A stretch of 64,000 bases of DNA from Acidobacteriota bacterium (lineage in GTDB: Bacteria > Acidobacteriota > Blastocatellia > Pyrinomonadales > Pyrinomonadaceae). Location of the stretch: assembly GCA_025463135.1 (NCBI GenBank), contig JAOAPY010000024.1, positions 62,001 through 126,000 of the forward strand, read 5' to 3'. The notes under the pieces were generated by a model, which saw only the letters and a program-made list of their open reading frames with translations, made no database searches and was not told the origin of the DNA. Numbering within the stretch: the stretch's first letter is position 1; every line of letters starts with the position of its first letter. Positions 764 through 16,895 of this stretch are shown here, in pieces. The translations under genes and the position numbers were made by a program.

Positions 764-1465
764 CTAGACGCCTGACTCAATGCGGGTCTGGCTTGATCGT
801 GCAGAGACTTTCGGGCGACCGAACAAATGCTCGCGCACCGGCTTGGGAAAGCGACTGGCGCAAATGACATCCCAAAAACTATTGGTTATGCCGTAGCCCC
901 GGTGCATGCCTTTGGAAGTATGGTGATAGAGATGGTACTTCTTGATGTGTCGGAAGTAACGATTTCGGAAGTTGTAAAAGTGTTCGCAGTGGTGAATCCA
1001 CTCTTCAGCGACATAGAACTGCACCACCCCGGCCAGCAGCATAGGCGCAGAGTACAAAGGAAACAAGAGACTCACCGGGACCGCAACGACAAAAATAGGC
1101 ATCAGGTCTTTTAGCCGCCCATTGATGTGGGTGCCATCAAAAGGTCGTTCATGATGTCCAAAGTGAGTCGGATCGAGATACTTGTTCGAGAGATAGGTGA
1201 AATACTTCTTGTACTTTCGGTTGGACACCTTCCAGTGACGATGAAAAACAAAGCGGTGCGAAAAGTATTCAACCATCGTCCACACGGGGATCCCGAAAAG
1301 AAAGAAAGCCAGGGACCGAAAGGGATGTACCGAGCGCAAACCGATGGTTAACAGGATGGCAGCATACGCGGTGTAGAAAATAGTTACCGGGTAGAGCGTG
1401 CCACGCGAAATGGCAGCCTGCTCTCGCTTATAAGGACTGTGGGGAAGAAAGGAAGGGCGTGACAT
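764..1465 (-). CDS. fatty acid hydroxylase / sterol desaturase superfamily membrane protein
   Basis: A 233-residue integral membrane protein with the histidine-box layout of the FA_hydroxylase superfamily: HRFVFH (70-75), HFGHH (101-105), HH (158-159) and HLYHH (178-182), which would ligate a di-iron centre. Hydrophobic segments lie near 28-45, 50-66 and 122-152. Members hydroxylate or desaturate lipid acyl chains, sterols or sphingoid bases using O2. The spacing resembles the catalytic domain of yeast Scs7-type fatty acid 2-hydroxylases, but the substrate cannot be read from sequence. GAGAGAGG precedes the ATG closely. There is no cytochrome b5 domain. It could act on the unusual membrane lipids of this phylum, which is an inference only. 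Confidence 0.85.
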   Translation of the reverse strand: MSRPSFLPHSPYKREQAAISRGTLYPVTIFYTAYAAILLTIGLRSVHPFRSLAFFLFGIPVWTMVEYFSHRFVFHRHWKVSNRKYKKYFTYLSNKYLDPTHFGHHERPFDGTHINGRLKDLMPIFVVAVPVSLLFPLYSAPMLLAGVVQFYVAEEWIHHCEHFYNFRNRYFRHIKKYHLYHHTSKGMHRGYGITNSFWDVICASRFPKPVREHLFGRPKVSARSSQTRIESGV

Positions 1466-3225: not shown

Positions 3226-3996
3226 TCAGCTCTTCTGCAACAGTTCCGGAGTGCTGATGTCGTTCCAGGATTCGATCGCGGCTAACGCCTGATGGTCGGT
3301 CATATCACTTTTGAGCGGCGTCACCGAAATATAACCGCGCTCGATGGCATTGTAGTCCGTGCCGTCCGCTGAGTTCGATCTGAAATACTCTTCTCCGATC
3401 CAAAAGTAGGGTTTGCCGCGCGGATCGATGTGTTCAGAAATGACAGGCCGCGCGTTCTTGATTCCCTGGCGCGTAACCAATGCGCCCTTGATCTCGCCAC
3501 GCGGAATGTTGATGTTCAGCAACGTTCCTTCAGGCAGTCCTTCAGCGAGAACTTTACGAACGGCAAGTACCGCGAAATTCGCCGCTTCCGAAAAATTAAA
3601 ATTATCACGCGCTACGAGACTGAAAGCCAGACCTTGCACGCCCAGAATCGTTGCCTCGAGCGCGCCGGCCACAGTACCCGAATAGGTCGCATCATCGCCC
3701 AGGTTGCCGCCGTGGTTGATACCTGAAGCACAAATATGTGGGTGTTCTTCTACGGGAAGGATCTTGTTCAAAGCGAGAGTAACGCAATCGGTGGGAGTAC
3801 CATCGACGGTCCAATGTCGCTCGTCGAGCTGTCGGATGCGCAAGGGTCGGGCGAGGGTCAAACTGTGAGAGGCGCCGCTCATCTCTGACGCGGGCGCCAC
3901 CACATAGACGTCACCCACCTCGCGCAGCGCCTGTTCCAGCTTGATCAGGCCGTCAGACTGGATGCCATCGTCGTTGGTAAGAAGAATCCGGGTCAT
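3226..3996 (-). CDS. surE: 5'/3'-nucleotidase SurE
   Basis: A 256-residue metal-dependent nucleoside monophosphatase. It begins with the diagnostic MTRILLTNDDG motif, whose D9-D10 bind the divalent metal. The phosphate and metal loop PASEMSGASHS (35-45) and the SGINHGGNLGDDATYSGT region near 90-108 follow. Length and motif order match the SurE family. It lies immediately upstream of pcm with a 4-base gap, the classic stress-survival pair. SurE hydrolyses nucleoside monophosphates and may also act on short polyphosphate. Confidence 0.96.
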   Translation of the reverse strand: MTRILLTNDDGIQSDGLIKLEQALREVGDVYVVAPASEMSGASHSLTLARPLRIRQLDERHWTVDGTPTDCVTLALNKILPVEEHPHICASGINHGGNLGDDATYSGTVAGALEATILGVQGLAFSLVARDNFNFSEAANFAVLAVRKVLAEGLPEGTLLNINIPRGEIKGALVTRQGIKNARPVISEHIDPRGKPYFWIGEEYFRSNSADGTDYNAIERGYISVTPLKSDMTDHQALAAIESWNDISTPELLQKS

Positions 3997-4144: not shown

Positions 4145-4357
4145 CTAATCACGGGCTGGGCGTGGAGTGCGCATACGGCTCTTCTTCTTGTTGCGCTTGC
4201 GCGCGAGAGCTGATTTGAGCTTCGCCTTTTGACCGGGCGGGATAAAGAACGCGTGTTTTTTCGCGTCCTTGATGATTTCTTCGGTCATCACCTTGCGTTT
4301 AAAGCGTCGCAGGGCACTTTCAATTGACTCACCGGGATTAATAGTAACTATCGCCAT
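4145..4357 (-). CDS. rpsU: 30S ribosomal protein S21
   Basis: A 70-residue basic protein with the S21 pattern: an N-terminal beta segment MAIVTINPGESIESALRRFKR (first 21 residues described in part), a conserved basic helix, then a Lys/Arg-rich tail rich in KRNKKKSRMRT. S21 sits on the platform of the small subunit near the anti-Shine-Dalgarno and affects initiation. GGAGAG lies upstream of the ATG. A plausible sigma-70 promoter is placed about 50-85 bases upstream of the gene, so rpsU seems to be transcribed on its own rather than with surE. Confidence 0.96.
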   Translation of the reverse strand: MAIVTINPGESIESALRRFKRKVMTEEIIKDAKKHAFFIPPGQKAKLKSALARKRNKKKSRMRTPRPARD

Positions 4358-4614: not shown

Positions 4615-6657
4615 CTAAACTCCGACCGCTTCCGGCACGGGCGCTGCTTTCTTCGCCCCCAGACCCTGAATCTGCACTGGCTTATCAGCTTCCTTGGTAT
4701 CCATCTGCTGCTTCATTACCAATTCCTGATAGAGCTTGCGCATCATCACGGCCTCTTCGTGCGCTGTCTTCGGACCTTCCATTTCGGGTTTATGGGGTCG
4801 CTTAAGGTCGACCGGGTTGAGCACCATATTGTGGCTGGCATCGCTCAACGTCACTTCCTTGCCATGCGCAAAGATTTCGTGGCGGCCGTGATCTTCATAC
4901 CACTTCGCCACCGTCGCGTTCTGGTGCATGTTTTCAATAATGTTCCGCCAACCGATGCCGGTGTTGTAAGCGCAGAAGGAAATCTCACCTTCCTGGGTTC
5001 CATAGGGGATAATGCACATTTCCGTGCGACGGAAATCGTAATTGAACAAGTCCTGGAACCACATGCCGGCGATGAACAGAAAGTTCCAGCGATCGGCGCG
5101 GCGCTTTTCGATGTCGCTTTGTGTTCGGTCGCCGCTGACCTTGCCGTAGTTCTTGCCGGTCAGGCCAAATGACTTGTCAAATTTCTTGAAGAGCTCGTAC
5201 AGCGTGAATTGCGATGGTGATTTGTACGGATTGTAGTGCTTTAGAAGCGCCAGGCCCATCATGATGTTGGACGCCCACTTGCCGCGAGCCGCGTCAGTGA
5301 TTTTGCGCATGTCCTTGACCAATCCGGGAATGCTAAGAAATTCCGGCACCGGGCTCATTTCACGCGTTTCCTTGTCAACCATAACGGCTGTGCCCACGCC
5401 GCAGTTGGGATGGCATCCACACGATACCTGGCCCCATTCAGCATCTGGTCCATGGACCAGATCGGCGAAATCCGCGAACGCACCCATCAGGGAAAGCGGG
5501 AACCAGTCGCGCGTCGGCTCGGTGATGCCAACCTGATTTTTGACGTCATGCGCCAGGTGCGAGAGTGTGTAGCGCTGTTGTAAACGACGCTGAGCGGTAA
5601 TCTCCTCATCACGCCCGGTAAATGAAACCGGTTGAAATGAGAGGAACGCAATCTTCTTGGGATTGTCGAGAGCGAAGCGAATAATTGAACCAACCTGATC
5701 GTTGTTAATGCCGTTGACCAGGGTCGTAACCAAAACGATCTCAACGCCGGCTTCGTGCAAATTATTAATCGCGCGCAGCTTCACATCGAAAAGGTTGCCG
5801 ACCTGGCGGTGGCTGTTGGCATCGTTGCCAATGCCGTCGAATTGGAAATAGACATAACGCAGACCAGCCTCGGCAGCTTCGCGACAGAATTCTTTGCTCT
5901 TCGCGAACTCGATACCATTCGTCGCGGCCTGGACGCTGTTATAGCCTACTTTGCGCGAGTATCTGATGGCTTCGAGGAAGTGGGGAGATATGGTCGGCTC
6001 GCCGCCGGAAAACTGAACCGACATCTGTCGTCGAGGCTTGATGGAGATGGCATTATCGAGGATCTCTTTGATCTCGTCCATGCTCAACTCGTGAACAAAG
6101 CCAACCTGATTGGCATCCATGAAGCACGGGTCGCACATCATGTTGCAGCGATTTGTCAGGTCGACGGTTAGGACCGCGCCGCGACCGTACTTGATAGTGC
6201 TCGTGCCGTGGTTATGAAGTTTCTCATCATTGTGCGACTGGATATCGCGGCCGGGGAACATCTTTTCGATGTGCGTGAGAAACTTGGAGTCGATGGCCAT
6301 CATATCTTCGAAGTGGCCATGGATGGCGCAATCCTTGATCATCCAAATCTCGCCATCACGCTCAATAATCTGAGCTTTGATCTCGCCGACTTTTTCGTTG
6401 ATCAAGATGCTGACATCCTGCTTGCCGCTCAAAATCGATTCTCTGGCCTCGATTACGCAATTCGGGCAAAGTGAGTCCGTGGTGCGAGGATAGCCAAGTG
6501 TTGGCTTGGTCTTTTGCCAGGATTTGAGCAAGGGTTTGTCCGACCACTTGGGCGTGAAAGACGGATTCGGTTTGTACTTATTTACTACTTGAATTGCGTC
6601 AAAAGCAGCGCCCGCCAGCAGGGTCAGCCCTCTCTCCGCATGTTTAATAGGTCGCAT
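4615..6657 (-). CDS. radical SAM protein of the Tes/MJ0619 family (putative membrane-spanning lipid synthase)
   Basis: A 680-residue radical SAM enzyme. The N-terminal Cys pair CPNC (64-67) and C110 precede the SAM-cluster motif CNMMCDPC (C171, C175, C178; CX3CX2C) and the GGE motif (218-220). Further cysteines cluster at 413, 415 and 419 (CGCHPNC), with C548 and C562 in NYDFRRTEMCIIPYG and ISFCAYN. This multi-cluster layout and the C-terminal N-Y-D-x-x-R...C-A-Y-N pattern match, from memory, the MJ0619/Tes family whose archaeal member joins lipid tails to make membrane-spanning tetraethers. Bacterial relatives have been proposed to build iso-diabolic acid and branched GDGTs in Acidobacteria. 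It is longer than MJ0619 (about 500 residues), with N- and C-terminal extensions. A GAGG lies upstream of the ATG. Family confidence is high, the exact reaction is inferred. Confidence 0.85.
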   Translation of the reverse strand: MRPIKHAERGLTLLAGAAFDAIQVVNKYKPNPSFTPKWSDKPLLKSWQKTKPTLGYPRTTDSLCPNCVIEARESILSGKQDVSILINEKVGEIKAQIIERDGEIWMIKDCAIHGHFEDMMAIDSKFLTHIEKMFPGRDIQSHNDEKLHNHGTSTIKYGRGAVLTVDLTNRCNMMCDPCFMDANQVGFVHELSMDEIKEILDNAISIKPRRQMSVQFSGGEPTISPHFLEAIRYSRKVGYNSVQAATNGIEFAKSKEFCREAAEAGLRYVYFQFDGIGNDANSHRQVGNLFDVKLRAINNLHEAGVEIVLVTTLVNGINNDQVGSIIRFALDNPKKIAFLSFQPVSFTGRDEEITAQRRLQQRYTLSHLAHDVKNQVGITEPTRDWFPLSLMGAFADFADLVHGPDAEWGQVSCGCHPNCGVGTAVMVDKETREMSPVPEFLSIPGLVKDMRKITDAARGKWASNIMMGLALLKHYNPYKSPSQFTLYELFKKFDKSFGLTGKNYGKVSGDRTQSDIEKRRADRWNFLFIAGMWFQDLFNYDFRRTEMCIIPYGTQEGEISFCAYNTGIGWRNIIENMHQNATVAKWYEDHGRHEIFAHGKEVTLSDASHNMVLNPVDLKRPHKPEMEGPKTAHEEAVMMRKLYQELVMKQQMDTKEADKPVQIQGLGAKKAAPVPEAVGV

Positions 6658-12267: not shown

Positions 12268-13206
12268 CTACTGCATCTTGCCGAGTGTATCCATCAGGTT
12301 AATGGCCGCGGGGCCAAGGATGGCGATGAACAAAGTGGGAAAAAGAAACAGGGCAAGGGGAATCAGCAGTTTGACCGCTGCTTTCTGTGCGGCTTGTTCA
12401 GCGCGTTGGCGGCGCTTAGTCCGCAGTGAATCAGAAAACACTCTGATAGCGCGCGTAATCGACGTACCGAATTTGTCGGTCTGAATCAACATCGCCACCA
12501 GGCTGCGCAAGTCGTCAACTCCGGTGCGCTCCGCAAGATTGCGGAGAGCTTCATCACGTTCCCGACCAACGCGAATTTCGAGATTAGCCATCTCAAACTC
12601 TTCACTGACGTCCGGATGAACGTCTTTGAGTTCGGAGGCTACTCGCAGCATTGCCGCATTTAGTCCCAGTCCCGCTTCGATGGAGATGACCATCAGATCC
12701 AGCGCGTCCGCTAAGCCCCAACGGATTTGCAGCTGGCGCGAGTTGATCATTCGACGAAGCACGTAACGCGGCAGAAAGAAGCCGATGATGAATCCAAAAA
12801 GAATCCAGAGCATTGCCGAACCCATCGGTCGTTGCGCGGCGGCACAGCCGATTGCCACCAACACCGGAAATCCCGCCATGGACACGAAGTGCACGGCGCG
12901 AAAAATAACCGCCGCGCTTGGCTGGCGATAGCCGGCATGCATCAATTGCTTCTGCAGCTTCTTTGCTTCGGAGGCAGAAGGCGGAAGGAGACGGCTGAAC
13001 GGAGACGCGAGACGCTCGGCAAGTTCGCTGGCCGCTCCCTGATCCTCAGTAATTGAAAATGATGGCGCCGCAGCGCTCGACGTTGAGCCGCCCAGTTTCT
13101 TCAGTCGTTCGGTCGCCGCACTTTGCGGTCGGACTACCAACCAGTAAAGGCCCATCAGGACCAAAGAAATACAAACGAAGGTTGAAAGGGCGATGATTAA
13201 AAGCAT
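12268..13206 (-). CDS. tadC: Tad pilus inner-membrane platform protein TadC (T2SF domain)
   Basis: A 312-residue protein of the type II secretion F family. An N-terminal membrane span (about 3-24) is followed by two further spans near 110-150 and one near the C-terminus (about 278-305). The T2SF core is visible as ALDLMVISIEAGLGLNAAM near 165-183 and FEMANLEIRVGRERDEAL. TadC pairs with TadB to form the platform that couples ATPase TadA to pilin assembly. It is separated from tadB by 137 bases that hold a facing heptamer-repeat hairpin, which is odd inside an operon. Confidence 0.9.
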   Translation of the reverse strand: MLLIIALSTFVCISLVLMGLYWLVVRPQSAATERLKKLGGSTSSAAAPSFSITEDQGAASELAERLASPFSRLLPPSASEAKKLQKQLMHAGYRQPSAAVIFRAVHFVSMAGFPVLVAIGCAAAQRPMGSAMLWILFGFIIGFFLPRYVLRRMINSRQLQIRWGLADALDLMVISIEAGLGLNAAMLRVASELKDVHPDVSEEFEMANLEIRVGRERDEALRNLAERTGVDDLRSLVAMLIQTDKFGTSITRAIRVFSDSLRTKRRQRAEQAAQKAAVKLLIPLALFLFPTLFIAILGPAAINLMDTLGKMQ

Positions 13207-13210
13207 GGGG

Positions 13211-13341
13211 TTGGTCTTTGGCCTTTTGTTTTTGGTCTTTGGTTTTTGATCTTTTGTTTTGATCTTCGGTTTCGCTCAGCGGGTCGTAACTCTTTACCTA
13301 TACAAAAAGCCAAAGACCCAAGACCAAAGTCCAAAGACCAT
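13211..13341. repeat. facing heptamer-repeat arms (hairpin) between tadB and tadC
   Basis: Left arm 13211-13272 consists of degenerate TTTGGTC/TTTTGAT heptamers. Right arm 13304-13341 consists of the complementary CCAAAGA/ACCAAAG heptamers. About 30 bases separate them. The arms could pair into a long imperfect hairpin in the mRNA. Confidence 0.85.
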
Positions 13342-13343
13342 CT

Positions 13344-14309
13344 TTAGATTTTTATGTTGAGTATCTTCCTCACCACCAACATCCCCGAGACTTGCAGGAC
13401 CATGGCAGCGGCGATCAGATAATGACCTCGTTGGTCCTTCCAGAGAACACTCATGTAATCCGGATTCATGATGCTTACGGCGAGTGCCACAAAGATCGGC
13501 AAGCCGCACAGTATCCAGGCAGACATCCGCGAACTGGTTGTTAATGTCTTCAGATCTCCCATAATGCGAAAACGCTCGCGAATCGTATAAGCGACCTTCT
13601 CGAGAATCTCCGCAAGATTGCCGCCGGTTTCGCGTTGAATGAGCACGGCAGTCACACACATGCGCAAGTCGAGCAACGGAATTCGATCAGTCAGGTTTTC
13701 CAAAGCCAGCTTGAGCGACAGTCCCAGATTCTGCTCTTCATAAGTCTTGCGAAATTCCGTCGCGATGGGTTCCGGCATTTCGGTGGACACCATGTGCAGC
13801 GCCTCCGCGAAACCATGACCGGCGGAGAGGGCGCGGCTCATGAGTTCCAGCGCATCCGGCAAGTTCTCGAGAAATGCGTCAAAGCGTTTCCTGCGTGTCC
13901 ACCATACGTGGATGAAGGGCACCGCCGCCGCCGCCAGTCCGCCCAGAATGACCAGAAGAAAATTAGCGCTGATCATAGAGACGGCCAGCGCCCCCAGGAT
14001 CCCGGCCATGCCGGCAAACATCATCAAGCGCGAGGGAGTGATGTGAAGATCCGCCTGGTCCAGCATCCTCTTCAAACGCAGGGTCGCTTGCAAATCCACC
14101 AGCACGCGATTGAGCCACGGTATCTCGCTCATCAGCTCGGTACGCGCGAGGATCACTTCGACATCTTCGGTGTGCGCCGAGTGCAACAGGGCTTCGCTTA
14201 GCCGCATGCGCAGTCGTTTACGTTTAGCATCGGAACCGCGCGTAGCGGCCAGGTACGCTCCAAGCACGACCAGCAAGCCAAAAACAAAAACGAGAAAGGA
14301 GATGAGCAT
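13344..14309 (-). CDS. tadB: Tad pilus inner-membrane platform protein TadB (T2SF domain)
   Basis: A 321-residue T2SF-family protein: N-terminal span (3-20), two central spans near 97-135 (LMMFAGMAGILGALAVSMI, FLLVILGGLAAAAVPFI) and C-terminal spans near 262-300. The T2SF core DALELMSRALSAGHGFAEAL (about 147-166) and the TGGNLAEILEKVAYTIRERFR segment are typical of TadB. It acts with TadC as the pilus assembly platform. The start lies 3 bases after the tadA stop, so translation is likely coupled. Confidence 0.92.
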   Translation of the reverse strand: MLISFLVFVFGLLVVLGAYLAATRGSDAKRKRLRMRLSEALLHSAHTEDVEVILARTELMSEIPWLNRVLVDLQATLRLKRMLDQADLHITPSRLMMFAGMAGILGALAVSMISANFLLVILGGLAAAAVPFIHVWWTRRKRFDAFLENLPDALELMSRALSAGHGFAEALHMVSTEMPEPIATEFRKTYEEQNLGLSLKLALENLTDRIPLLDLRMCVTAVLIQRETGGNLAEILEKVAYTIRERFRIMGDLKTLTTSSRMSAWILCGLPIFVALAVSIMNPDYMSVLWKDQRGHYLIAAAMVLQVSGMLVVRKILNIKI

Positions 14310-14312
14310 TTC

Positions 14313-15659
14313 TTACATGTCCTCGAAAAAGACGCGTGGCAATTGCATGCCGCAGGCTTTAAGTTTTTCGGCAAAGCGCGGCCGAATGCCGGTGGCGCGG
14401 AAGCGACCCAGAACCTGGCCCTGCGAGTCCATGCCGGTGCGCTCATAGAGAAAGATTTCCTGCATCGTAATCGTGTCGCCTTCCATTCCCGTGATCTCTG
14501 AAATGGAAGTAACCCGCCGCGAGCCGTCGGGATGTCGGGCGGCCTGCAGCACGAGGTCCAGCGCTGAAGCGATCTGCTGCCGCATTGCGCGATCCGAAAG
14601 CCTCATGCCGGTCATTTGAATCATGGTTTCAATTCGGGAAAGCGCGTCGCGCGGCGTGTTCGCGTGAATCGTCGTCAAGCTGCCATCGTGGCCGGTGTTC
14701 ATCGCCTGGAGCATGTCGATCGCTTCTCCGCCGCGCACCTCACCGATGACGATGCGATCCGGCCTCATGCGCAAAGCGTTTCGCACCAGGTCCCGCTGCG
14801 TGACTTCCCCGCGCCCTTCGATGTTGGGCGGCCTGGTTTCCAGGCGCACCACGTGGGGTTGTTGCAACTGCAATTCTGCTGAGTCTTCAATGGTTACAAT
14901 ACGTTCGTCTTCGGGTATGTATGCGGAAAGAGAGTTCAAAAGAGTGGTTTTGCCGGCGCCGGTACCACCGGAAATCAGAACATTGAGCCGGGCCTTGACA
15001 CACATCTCGAGCATGTCGGCGATGTCTTTGGTCAAGGCGCGTTTTTCAATTAGCTGTGTCATGCGCAGGGGTTCTGCTCCGAAACGACGGATCGAAAGCA
15101 CCGGCCCATCGATTGACAACGGCGGAATGATCGCATTGACACGCGATCCATCCTTGAGCCTGGCGTCGACCATTGGTGATGACTCGTCGATACGCCGGCC
15201 AACGGAAGAAACGATCCGCTCGATCACACGCATCAAATGCTCATCGTCTTTGAAAGCTACGTTTGTAGCTTCAAGTTTCCCCCGGCGTTCGACATAGATC
15301 GTGTGGTGTGAATTAACGAGAATGTCCGAGATGGTCGAGTCGGCGAGCAGCGGTTCAAGCGGCCCCAGGCCAAACAGTTCGTGCTGCACCTCATTGACTA
15401 AGCGATCGCGCTCGGCTGCCGACAGGGGCATCGCCTCTTCGACCAGCACGGTCTCTGCCAGGCGCGAGACTTCGGCATGAAGCTGGTCTGGTGCCAGCGA
15501 CGTCAACTTCGTCAAATCCATTCGGTTGATGAGCGCGCGGTGCAGACGCGACTTCATTTCCTGAAATGTATGTTGACCGCTTACCTCGCCGCTGTTGCCG
15601 TTACCGATGACGGCGCCAGGCAGACTTGCTTCCTTTATGAATCTTTCACGCAGTGCCAT
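14313..15659 (-). CDS. tadA: Tad pilus assembly ATPase TadA/CpaF
   Basis: A 448-residue hexameric secretion ATPase of the GspE/CpaF family. The N-terminal domain (about 40-200) includes [12 protein letters not shown] and [17 protein letters not shown]. Walker [10 protein letters not shown] is at 231-239, the Asp box near [15 protein letters not shown], Walker B in [15 protein letters not shown], and the His box in [12 protein letters not shown]. It powers Flp pilin polymerisation from the cytoplasmic face. It stands between tadZ and tadB with very short gaps. Confidence 0.96.
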
Positions 15660-15674
15660 GGTAGTTGTGACCTA

Positions 15675-16895
15675 TTAAACTTTTCCCATTGTGGTCTGCA
15701 GATCGAATTGCGGCTGATCGCGACGTAGTAGTGAACCCCAGAAACCGCGCTGCGGTTTGGGCTCAGCCACCGGCATTGATGCGCCCCCAATCACCTTCGC
15801 AAGGCGTCTGATCTCCTGGGCCAGTTTCGAGTTTGAATCTGACTGCACCAGCGGCTGGCCCAGATTTATCGAGGTCACCGCCGTTTGGTAATCGCTGGGA
15901 ATGAAACCGCTGACCGCTTCGCCCAGAAACTTCTCGACCTGCTGCAGATCAAGGTCGATCTGCTTGCTCCAGCGATTCACAACCACGCGGATCTTCTTGC
16001 GCGGATAGCCCAGCCGGTCAAAGATTTCCAGCGCCCGCTGGGTGCTGCGAATGGCTGGTATATCCAGAGTCAGAACCAAAATGATCTCGTCAGATTGGTC
16101 CAACGCGGCCAGGGTGATCGCATCAAAGGTGTGTTGTGGATCAAGCACAACCAGCTCGTAAGAATCTCGCAAACGCTGCAGCACTTCGAAAATGTGTTCC
16201 GGCTCTACCTCGTCGGCGGCGTCGACTTCTTTGGGGGCAGCCAGCAAAGAGAGCGTGGACGAGTAAGGAGTGATAAAGCTGTTCACCAACGACTCATCCA
16301 GACGGGCGCGGTGTTCGGCCATGTCAGCGATTGAATATTTTGGATCTACACCCAGAAACAGCGGCAGGTCTCCGGCCTGAAGATTCAGATCGACAAGCAC
16401 TGTCCGACCTGCCATTGCCGCCGCCAGGTTGGTCGCGAGAAAGGAAGTACCGCAGCCGCCTTTGCTGGAAAACACGGAAATCATGCGGCCTTTCTTTCGG
16501 GGTGCTTCAACTTGATCGTCACTGAATGCCACTGTGCGATCCAGGACTGTCTTCAACTCCTGGGCAAAGATGGGAATTCGCAGAAAGTCCCGGGCCCCTG
16601 CCCTCAGACTGCGCAGGATCAAATCCGAAGAGTCGCTGCGCGCCGCGGAGATGATTGCCATCGTCGGTCGTTCCCTGGCCAGGCGCTTGATCATCTCAAT
16701 GCCCTGCTCTGGATTAGAGTCGAGTGTGATTAAGGCTGCGGCCGGTTTGAGCCGAACGATTTCATCATAAAGTTGTTCTGCATCGTTCCCACCGGCGAGC
16801 AGGCGCGTGCGCTCGTCCGCGGACAGCGCCTGCCGGATCTCTTTGAAGTTCTCGAGACCGGCGCTAAGAACCACCATGGTGATCGTTTGTGTCAT
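15675..16895 (-). CDS. tadZ: Tad pilus localisation ATPase TadZ/CpaE
   Basis: A 406-residue protein. The N-terminal ~120 residues adopt a receiver-like layout (VVLSAG..., AAALITLD, AIISAA, FLRIPI) without a clear phospho-acceptor set. The C-terminal part is a ParA/MinD-type ATPase with deviant Walker A SKGGCGTS (144-151) and VVLDPQHTFDA as the Walker B-like region. TadZ/CpaE proteins place the pilus machine at a cell pole. The gap upstream to tadE contains a 25-bp inverted repeat. Confidence 0.9.
   Translation of the reverse strand: MTQTITMVVLSAGLENFKEIRQALSADERTRLLAGGNDAEQLYDEIVRLKPAAALITLDSNPEQGIEMIKRLARERPTMAIISAARSDSSDLILRSLRAGARDFLRIPIFAQELKTVLDRTVAFSDDQVEAPRKKGRMISVFSSKGGCGTSFLATNLAAAMAGRTVLVDLNLQAGDLPLFLGVDPKYSIADMAEHRARLDESLVNSFITPYSSTLSLLAAPKEVDAADEVEPEHIFEVLQRLRDSYELVVLDPQHTFDAITLAALDQSDEIILVLTLDIPAIRSTQRALEIFDRLGYPRKKIRVVVNRWSKQIDLDLQQVEKFLGEAVSGFIPSDYQTAVTSINLGQPLVQSDSNSKLAQEIRRLAKVIGGASMPVAEPKPQRGFWGSLLRRDQPQFDLQTTMGKV

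Follow-up and report, generated by a model that had tools for sequence, protein, structure and literature searches.

The closest described relative of the protein analysed here is the archaeal tetraether synthase (Tes, or GDGT-MAS) MJ0619, whose structure has four metal sites, namely a single rubredoxin-type iron besides three [4Fe-4S] clusters (PMC9433317). The rubredoxin-type iron is bound by C9, C12, C33 and H36 and the N-terminal auxiliary cluster, [4Fe-4S]N, by C73, C77, C80 and a histidine, while the C-terminal cluster has a labile Met439, near Tyr459; both Met439 and Tyr459 are completely conserved in 1000 archaeal homologues (PMC9433317). The bacterial enzyme Mss has reported heterologous coupling activity (PMC11604127, PMC13274423) and shows a Tes-like architecture in published models (PMC13274423).

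For Acidobacteria, a lipid-making role of Tes homologues has been a hypothesis in print since 2022 (PMC8941075, PMC10087280). Zeng et al. described homologues in Koribacter (42%) and Solibacter (40%), and a single one, at 32%, in Edaphobacter aggregans (PMC8941075). Of seven SDs tested, four (1, 3, 4 and 6) contained iso-diabolic acid (PMC13274423). SD4 strains have this acid in common (PMC4644332), and it is also made by Chloracidobacterium (PMC12816986).

We analysed a 64,000-nucleotide stretch of DNA (the window) from a bacterium of the Pyrinomonadaceae, Acidobacteriota, with a genome of 6.48 Mb that is 100% complete. Its class, Blastocatellia, is taken here to be SD4. An ORF on the minus strand runs from an ATG, preceded by a plausible ribosome-binding site, to a stop codon and encodes 680 amino acids; the opposite strand holds no comparable open frame at this position. 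The subfamily to which the encoded Tes-like protein belongs is referred to as the window type. The gene and the parts of its product are:

4615..6657, minus strand: window-type Tes-like radical SAM protein, 680 aa
6574..6651, minus strand: residues 3-28, predicted N-terminal helix, moderately amphipathic
6319..6468, minus strand: residues 64-113, rubredoxin-type Fe site with C64, C67, C110 and H113 (Pfam HMPTM zinc ribbon)
6199..6222, minus strand: residues 146-153, KLHNHGTS, cysteine-free, at the position of MJ0619 C73/C77/C80 ([4Fe-4S]N)
6124..6147, minus strand: residues 171-178, CX3CX2C radical SAM cluster motif
5611..5634, minus strand: residues 342-349, QPVSFTGR, SAM-binding loop, equivalent to MJ0619 Q268, S271 and R275
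5401..5421, minus strand: residues 413-419, CxCx3C, with C419 aligned with an MJ0619 cysteine
4972..5064, minus strand: residues 532-562, C-terminal auxiliary cluster region with M532, C548, Y552 and C562

Family placement of the Tes-like protein

An earlier note, made from the DNA letters, had read this ORF (leaving its strand unstated) as a Tes/MJ0619-like radical SAM enzyme and a candidate for making membrane-spanning lipids. The cysteines it listed are exact, with the unconserved C258 in addition (full set 64, 67, 110, 171, 175, 178, 258, 413, 415, 419, 548 and 562), and the NYDFRRTEMC...FCAYN block that it singled out is present. It also gave the length excess over MJ0619, about 170 residues, correctly, MJ0619 being 506 aa long, which is consistent with the offset of 20 used for mapping its residues by the numbering of the 7TOL chain. 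The added segments amount to about 55 residues at the N-terminus and about 80 at the C-terminus.

The profile and structure searches that the note had proposed placed the protein with Tes, far above chance. The top NCBIfam model was tetraether lipid synthase Tes (NF045702; 3.8e-95, 319.3 bits, residues 60-579), with a score under the equivalog cut-off of 450 bits. It was followed by TrsS (NF045646), which has the radical SAM half in common with the protein and matched mainly residues 92-377, at 208.5 bits versus a cut-off of 490. The Pfam search returned Radical_SAM (PF04055, 1.3e-21) and the HMPTM zinc ribbon (8.9e-12), and the sole strong match in the PDB sequence search was GDGT-MAS of M. 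jannaschii (7TOL, E 3.6e-60). An AlphaFold model of moderate quality (mean pLDDT 64.5, pTM 0.71), built from 50 orthologues, had 7TOL (Z 16.1, 415 residues) and 7TOM (Z 16.0, 420 residues) as top fold matches, the alignment spanning residues 54-591 with 27% identity; the next fold family was MoaA (Z 12.5). Foldseek agreed with the GDGT-MAS match (E 7.8e-21). By Pfam, alignment and fold match, the CX3CX2C radical SAM motif lies in a partial TIM barrel. Profile, sequence and fold establish the protein as a homologue of archaeal Tes/GDGT-MAS. The Tes identity suggested in the note holds to that extent; with 319 versus 450 bits and a position outside canonical Tes in the tree, the protein is a non-canonical Tes.

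The second-ranking TrsS model, with its 208 bits, bears on a reading in which the protein belongs to the wider Tes/TrsS/HMPTM group of radical SAM enzymes and acts on a non-lipid substrate, as a seleno-protein-linked TrsS-like enzyme, on a pterin or as a maturase. MJ0619 itself was formerly assigned to pterin methylation, an assignment left uncorroborated by Lloyd et al. (PMC9433317). However, Tes is ahead of TrsS by about 110 bits and matches over the whole length, and the equivalents of QPVSFTGR, M439 and Y459 are kept, whereas they are lost in a divergent homologue (L109) for which the TrsS and Tes scores are almost equal. Furthermore, no maturase-type substrate gene was found conserved beside the window-type gene. 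We consider a non-lipid substrate improbable, and the lipid-coupling reading of the note is the best-supported one.

Metal sites and catalytic residues

The likeness of the Tes-like protein to MJ0619 (7TOL, 7TOM) extends over the fold, the radical SAM core, the rubredoxin-type site, the C-terminal ligands with Met439 and Tyr459, and the SAM loop QPVSFTGR, which is identical in the two proteins. The rubredoxin-type C-X2-C...C-X2-H is kept, with C64, C67, C110 and H113 corresponding to C9, C12, C33 and H36; the match for C9 and C12 is based on CX2C spacing and the Pfam domain, since these residues lie outside the aligned MJ0619 segment. In the C-terminal cluster, C419, C548 (C455 in MJ0619), C562 (C470) and M532 (Met439) are kept as ligands, and Tyr459 is conserved as Y552. 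Because the AlphaFold model is weak at residues 532-584, statements on ligands are based on the alignment and not on the model. Invariant in the 50 orthologues are the rubredoxin ligands, CX3CX2C, Q342, S345, R349, C419, M532, C548, Y552 and C562.

In contrast to MJ0619, the Tes-like protein lacks the [4Fe-4S]N cysteines. In the alignment, K, H and S stand opposite C73, C77 and C80, and an invariant H-x-H-G occupies the site. The stretch between residues 114 and 170 is free of cysteine in each of the 50 orthologues. Across the phylum, none of 40 window-type sequences has the three cysteines; 3 of the 40 have one stray cysteine in this stretch. Since the [4Fe-4S]N cysteines have no counterpart, ligands are present for three of the four metal sites. 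The earlier note had expected four cluster sites and had named their absence, or best matches to another radical SAM class, as grounds against its reading. The rubredoxin, radical SAM and C-terminal ligands are found and those of [4Fe-4S]N are not, while the top matches are still Tes. That the window type forms a distinct acidobacterial subfamily without one cluster is well supported.

Two additional cysteines, C413 and C415, are invariant in the window type and absent from MJ0619; most canonical acidobacterial Tes share C415, while C413 is mostly absent from them. Residue N108 of MJ0619 is replaced by Asp. The N-terminal helix (residues 3-28) is part of the extension of about 55 residues that is common to the window type. 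A contact of this helix with the membrane is a guess, because its hydrophobic moment of 0.4-0.5 is not exceptional inside the protein.

Two kinds of Tes-like protein in one phylum

A maximum-likelihood tree groups the 40 window-type sequences in one acidobacterial clade with a support of 100/100 and a long stem; long branches elsewhere make the deep branching order unsure. Other acidobacterial homologues belong to the same family and occur in the same phylum, but are only 32-37% identical to the Tes-like protein, keep the CX3CX2C of the N-terminal cluster and all four metal sites, and reach 471-619 bits on the Tes model. Examples of these canonical bacterial Tes homologues are:

L071:3821-5632, canonical Tes homologue
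L090:11837-13489, canonical Tes homologue

Judged by identity, the E. aggregans homologue of Zeng et al. is probably of the window type and those of Koribacter and Solibacter are probably canonical. Among 247 acidobacterial genomes with a completeness of at least 90%, canonical Tes above the cut-off was found in 29 and a window-type protein in 117 (the direct orthologue type in 108, the paralogue type alone in 9), and 11 genomes had both. In some Acidobacteriaceae, canonical Tes lies within about 6 kb of a window-type gene (L071:3821-8001, L090:6256-13489 and L091:5988-15478), the two being nearly adjacent in L071. Such pairs may represent a two-step locus.

Within the class of the host, 57 of 60 genomes carry the window type, at least partially, with identities of 67-91%; a 97% complete genome of this class (G055) is among the few near-complete relatives without the gene. 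A search of named genomes gave 80 window-type records, mostly from SD1 and SD3, including Edaphobacter modestus DSM 18101, Granulicella paludicola, G. rosea, G. aggregans, Acidipila rosea and Acidicapsa dinghuensis. The window-type gene is present as a single full-length copy in each of 14 SD1 strains (309-332 bits). A second near-complete homologue occurs among them only in Acidicapsa (256 bits), and two strains have additional partial or broken homologues. Two records labelled Rhodanobacteraceae (L139, L141) contain window-type genes 85-86% identical to an Acidobacteriaceae query and are probably mislabelled bins. The viral contigs searched gave remote radical SAM matches only.

The earlier note had also pointed to a lipid hydroxylase-family gene 3 kb from the Tes-like gene. 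The neighbours concerned are:

764..1465, minus strand: FA_hydroxylase-family protein (Pfam)
3226..3996, minus strand: surE, downstream neighbour, not functionally linked
4145..4357, minus strand: rpsU (ribosomal protein S21), downstream neighbour, no part in the function

The FA_hydroxylase-family gene is real and lies 3.15 kb away, but it is not conserved beside orthologues: no counterpart was found near the orthologue in relatives with enough flanking sequence, and the hydroxylase was dropped as a candidate partner of the Tes-like protein. SurE is kept downstream in many genomes of the host's family, and the order rpsU, surE, pcm is conserved within this family only. Near the SD1 and SD3 orthologues, simple ORF clustering, in which the clusters were only partly annotated, gave no recurrent lipid gene. 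Because no lipid gene recurs and the rpsU/surE/pcm synteny is confined to the host's family, gene context was dropped as evidence. Elsewhere in the window, 12268-16895 encodes two T2SSF proteins, a T2SSE ATPase and a ParA-like ATPase, a locus of the Tad/Flp pilus type.

Link to iso-diabolic acid

Measured contents of iso-diabolic acid in SD1 strains are 12-49% of fatty acids (PMC11354219, PMC12935467), with 27-49% in Occallatibacter and relatives (PMC12935467) and 30.4% in E. modestus DSM 18101 (PMC11354219). In the latter strain, the window-type gene is the only Tes-family gene (313.8 bits; the next match has 52.7). Its genome encodes 27 radical SAM proteins, about half of them housekeeping (MoaA, MiaB, RimO, LipA, RlmN, MqnC, MqnE, HpnH, HpnJ, PqqE and others). 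Since about 10 of the 27 are without a clear NCBIfam match, this elimination narrows the list of candidates without closing it.

These proteins leave room for iso-C15 coupling by another enzyme, either a further radical SAM protein or an Mss homologue, with the window type making some other lipid change, e.g., coupling of other chains or a step toward brGDGTs. Mss is reportedly the membrane-spanning lipid synthase of Thermotoga and Clostridia, said to have been described by Sahonero-Canavesi et al. in 2022. Compared by description only, it shares the proposed product class, iso-diabolic acid, and its heterologous activity is in favour of such an assignment. A search of Thermotoga maritima with the Tes model gave nothing above the cut-off. 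On the other hand, most of the SD1 strains tested have no Tes-family protein besides the window type, in a subdivision with the high contents given above, and the window type keeps the tail-coupling residues. Coupling by another enzyme therefore appears unlikely.

The host also encodes, on contig C21, a paralogue 51% identical to the Tes-like protein. It has the same ligand set in the alignment and occurs in the majority of genomes from the host's family. Both points would fit a scheme in which this paralogue is the iso-diabolic acid synthase of the host and the gene at 4615-6657 a specialised copy. The paralogue type, however, was found in just three families (the host's, f32 and f65), whereas the window type is in nearly all of the class and extends to SD1 and SD3, and E. 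modestus has the window type only. We regard this scheme as very improbable. On contig C9 of the host (C9:13736-13870; L003:1501-1635) there is a remnant of 45 residues that matches residues 25-69 with 71% identity and is soon followed by a stop, which is probably a decayed third copy.

Distribution and residue conservation make it most likely that the Tes-like protein is an iso-C15 coupling enzyme, and it probably joins two iso-C15 acyl tails tail-to-tail to form iso-diabolic acid, the hallmark lipid of the phylum and a C30 membrane-spanning diacid. For this reaction we infer the lipid substrate, the iso-C15 specificity and the chemistry; any contact of the N-terminal helix with membranes is likewise inferred. 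If the enzyme works like GDGT-MAS, SAM would be cleaved at the CX3CX2C cluster, and the resulting 5'-deoxyadenosyl radical would abstract hydrogen from one tail at its terminal carbon. This carbon would then be tethered by a C-S bond to the C-terminal auxiliary cluster (C419, C548, C562, labile M532). Once activated by a second SAM, the other tail would attack the tethered carbon to give the C-C bond. Speaking against the coupling reading are the Tes score under the cut-off, the missing metal site, the Asp in place of N108, the unassigned radical SAM proteins of E. modestus and the 51% paralogue of the host, and the gene neighbourhood offers no link to lipids.

In the host, the ether linkage could then be added by an ElbD-like protein, which is proposed because no PlsA/Ger-type protein was found: a search of the host genome for a DUF2229 protein of this type was negative, with Thermotoga maritima as positive control. 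The DUF2229-type Ger, partner of Mss, is thus absent, a difference from the Mss system. Contig C40 (L206:5711-10135) encodes a 1474-aa fatty-acyl reductase/AMP-ligase/ACP/acyltransferase fusion protein, which we take to resemble ElbD, with a HAD protein and a lactate-racemase-like protein encoded upstream. From its domains it is an ElbD-like candidate for ether lipid formation. An elb operon has been reported for SD4 (PMC10087280), and ether-bound iso-diabolic acid is abundant in most SD4 cultures (PMC13274423). The candidate and the absence of DUF2229 fit such ether-bound iso-diabolic acid.

The two-family split, the lost cluster and the match of genotype and phenotype in the same strain are new; none was found in the literature searched. 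Published surveys lump the two kinds of Tes-like protein that are split here, and the split changes which bacteria are predicted to make brGDGTs. These lipids and iso-diabolic acid underlie widely used temperature and pH proxies for soils and lakes. The near-universal presence of the window type in the iso-diabolic-acid-making groups examined, and its position as the sole Tes-family gene of a strain in which iso-diabolic acid reaches 30%, make the proposal directly testable. If the protein is active, the [4Fe-4S]N cluster would be dispensable for coupling. Taken as a whole, a wider picture seems evenly poised: canonical four-site Tes would be the rarer second system in the phylum, and the window type would be the acidobacterial iso-diabolic acid synthase, a separate and long-kept branch with three metal sites that forms sp3-sp3 C-C bonds in largely aerobic bacteria, the loss of the N-terminal cluster, which is surface-exposed, perhaps being an adaptation to oxygen.
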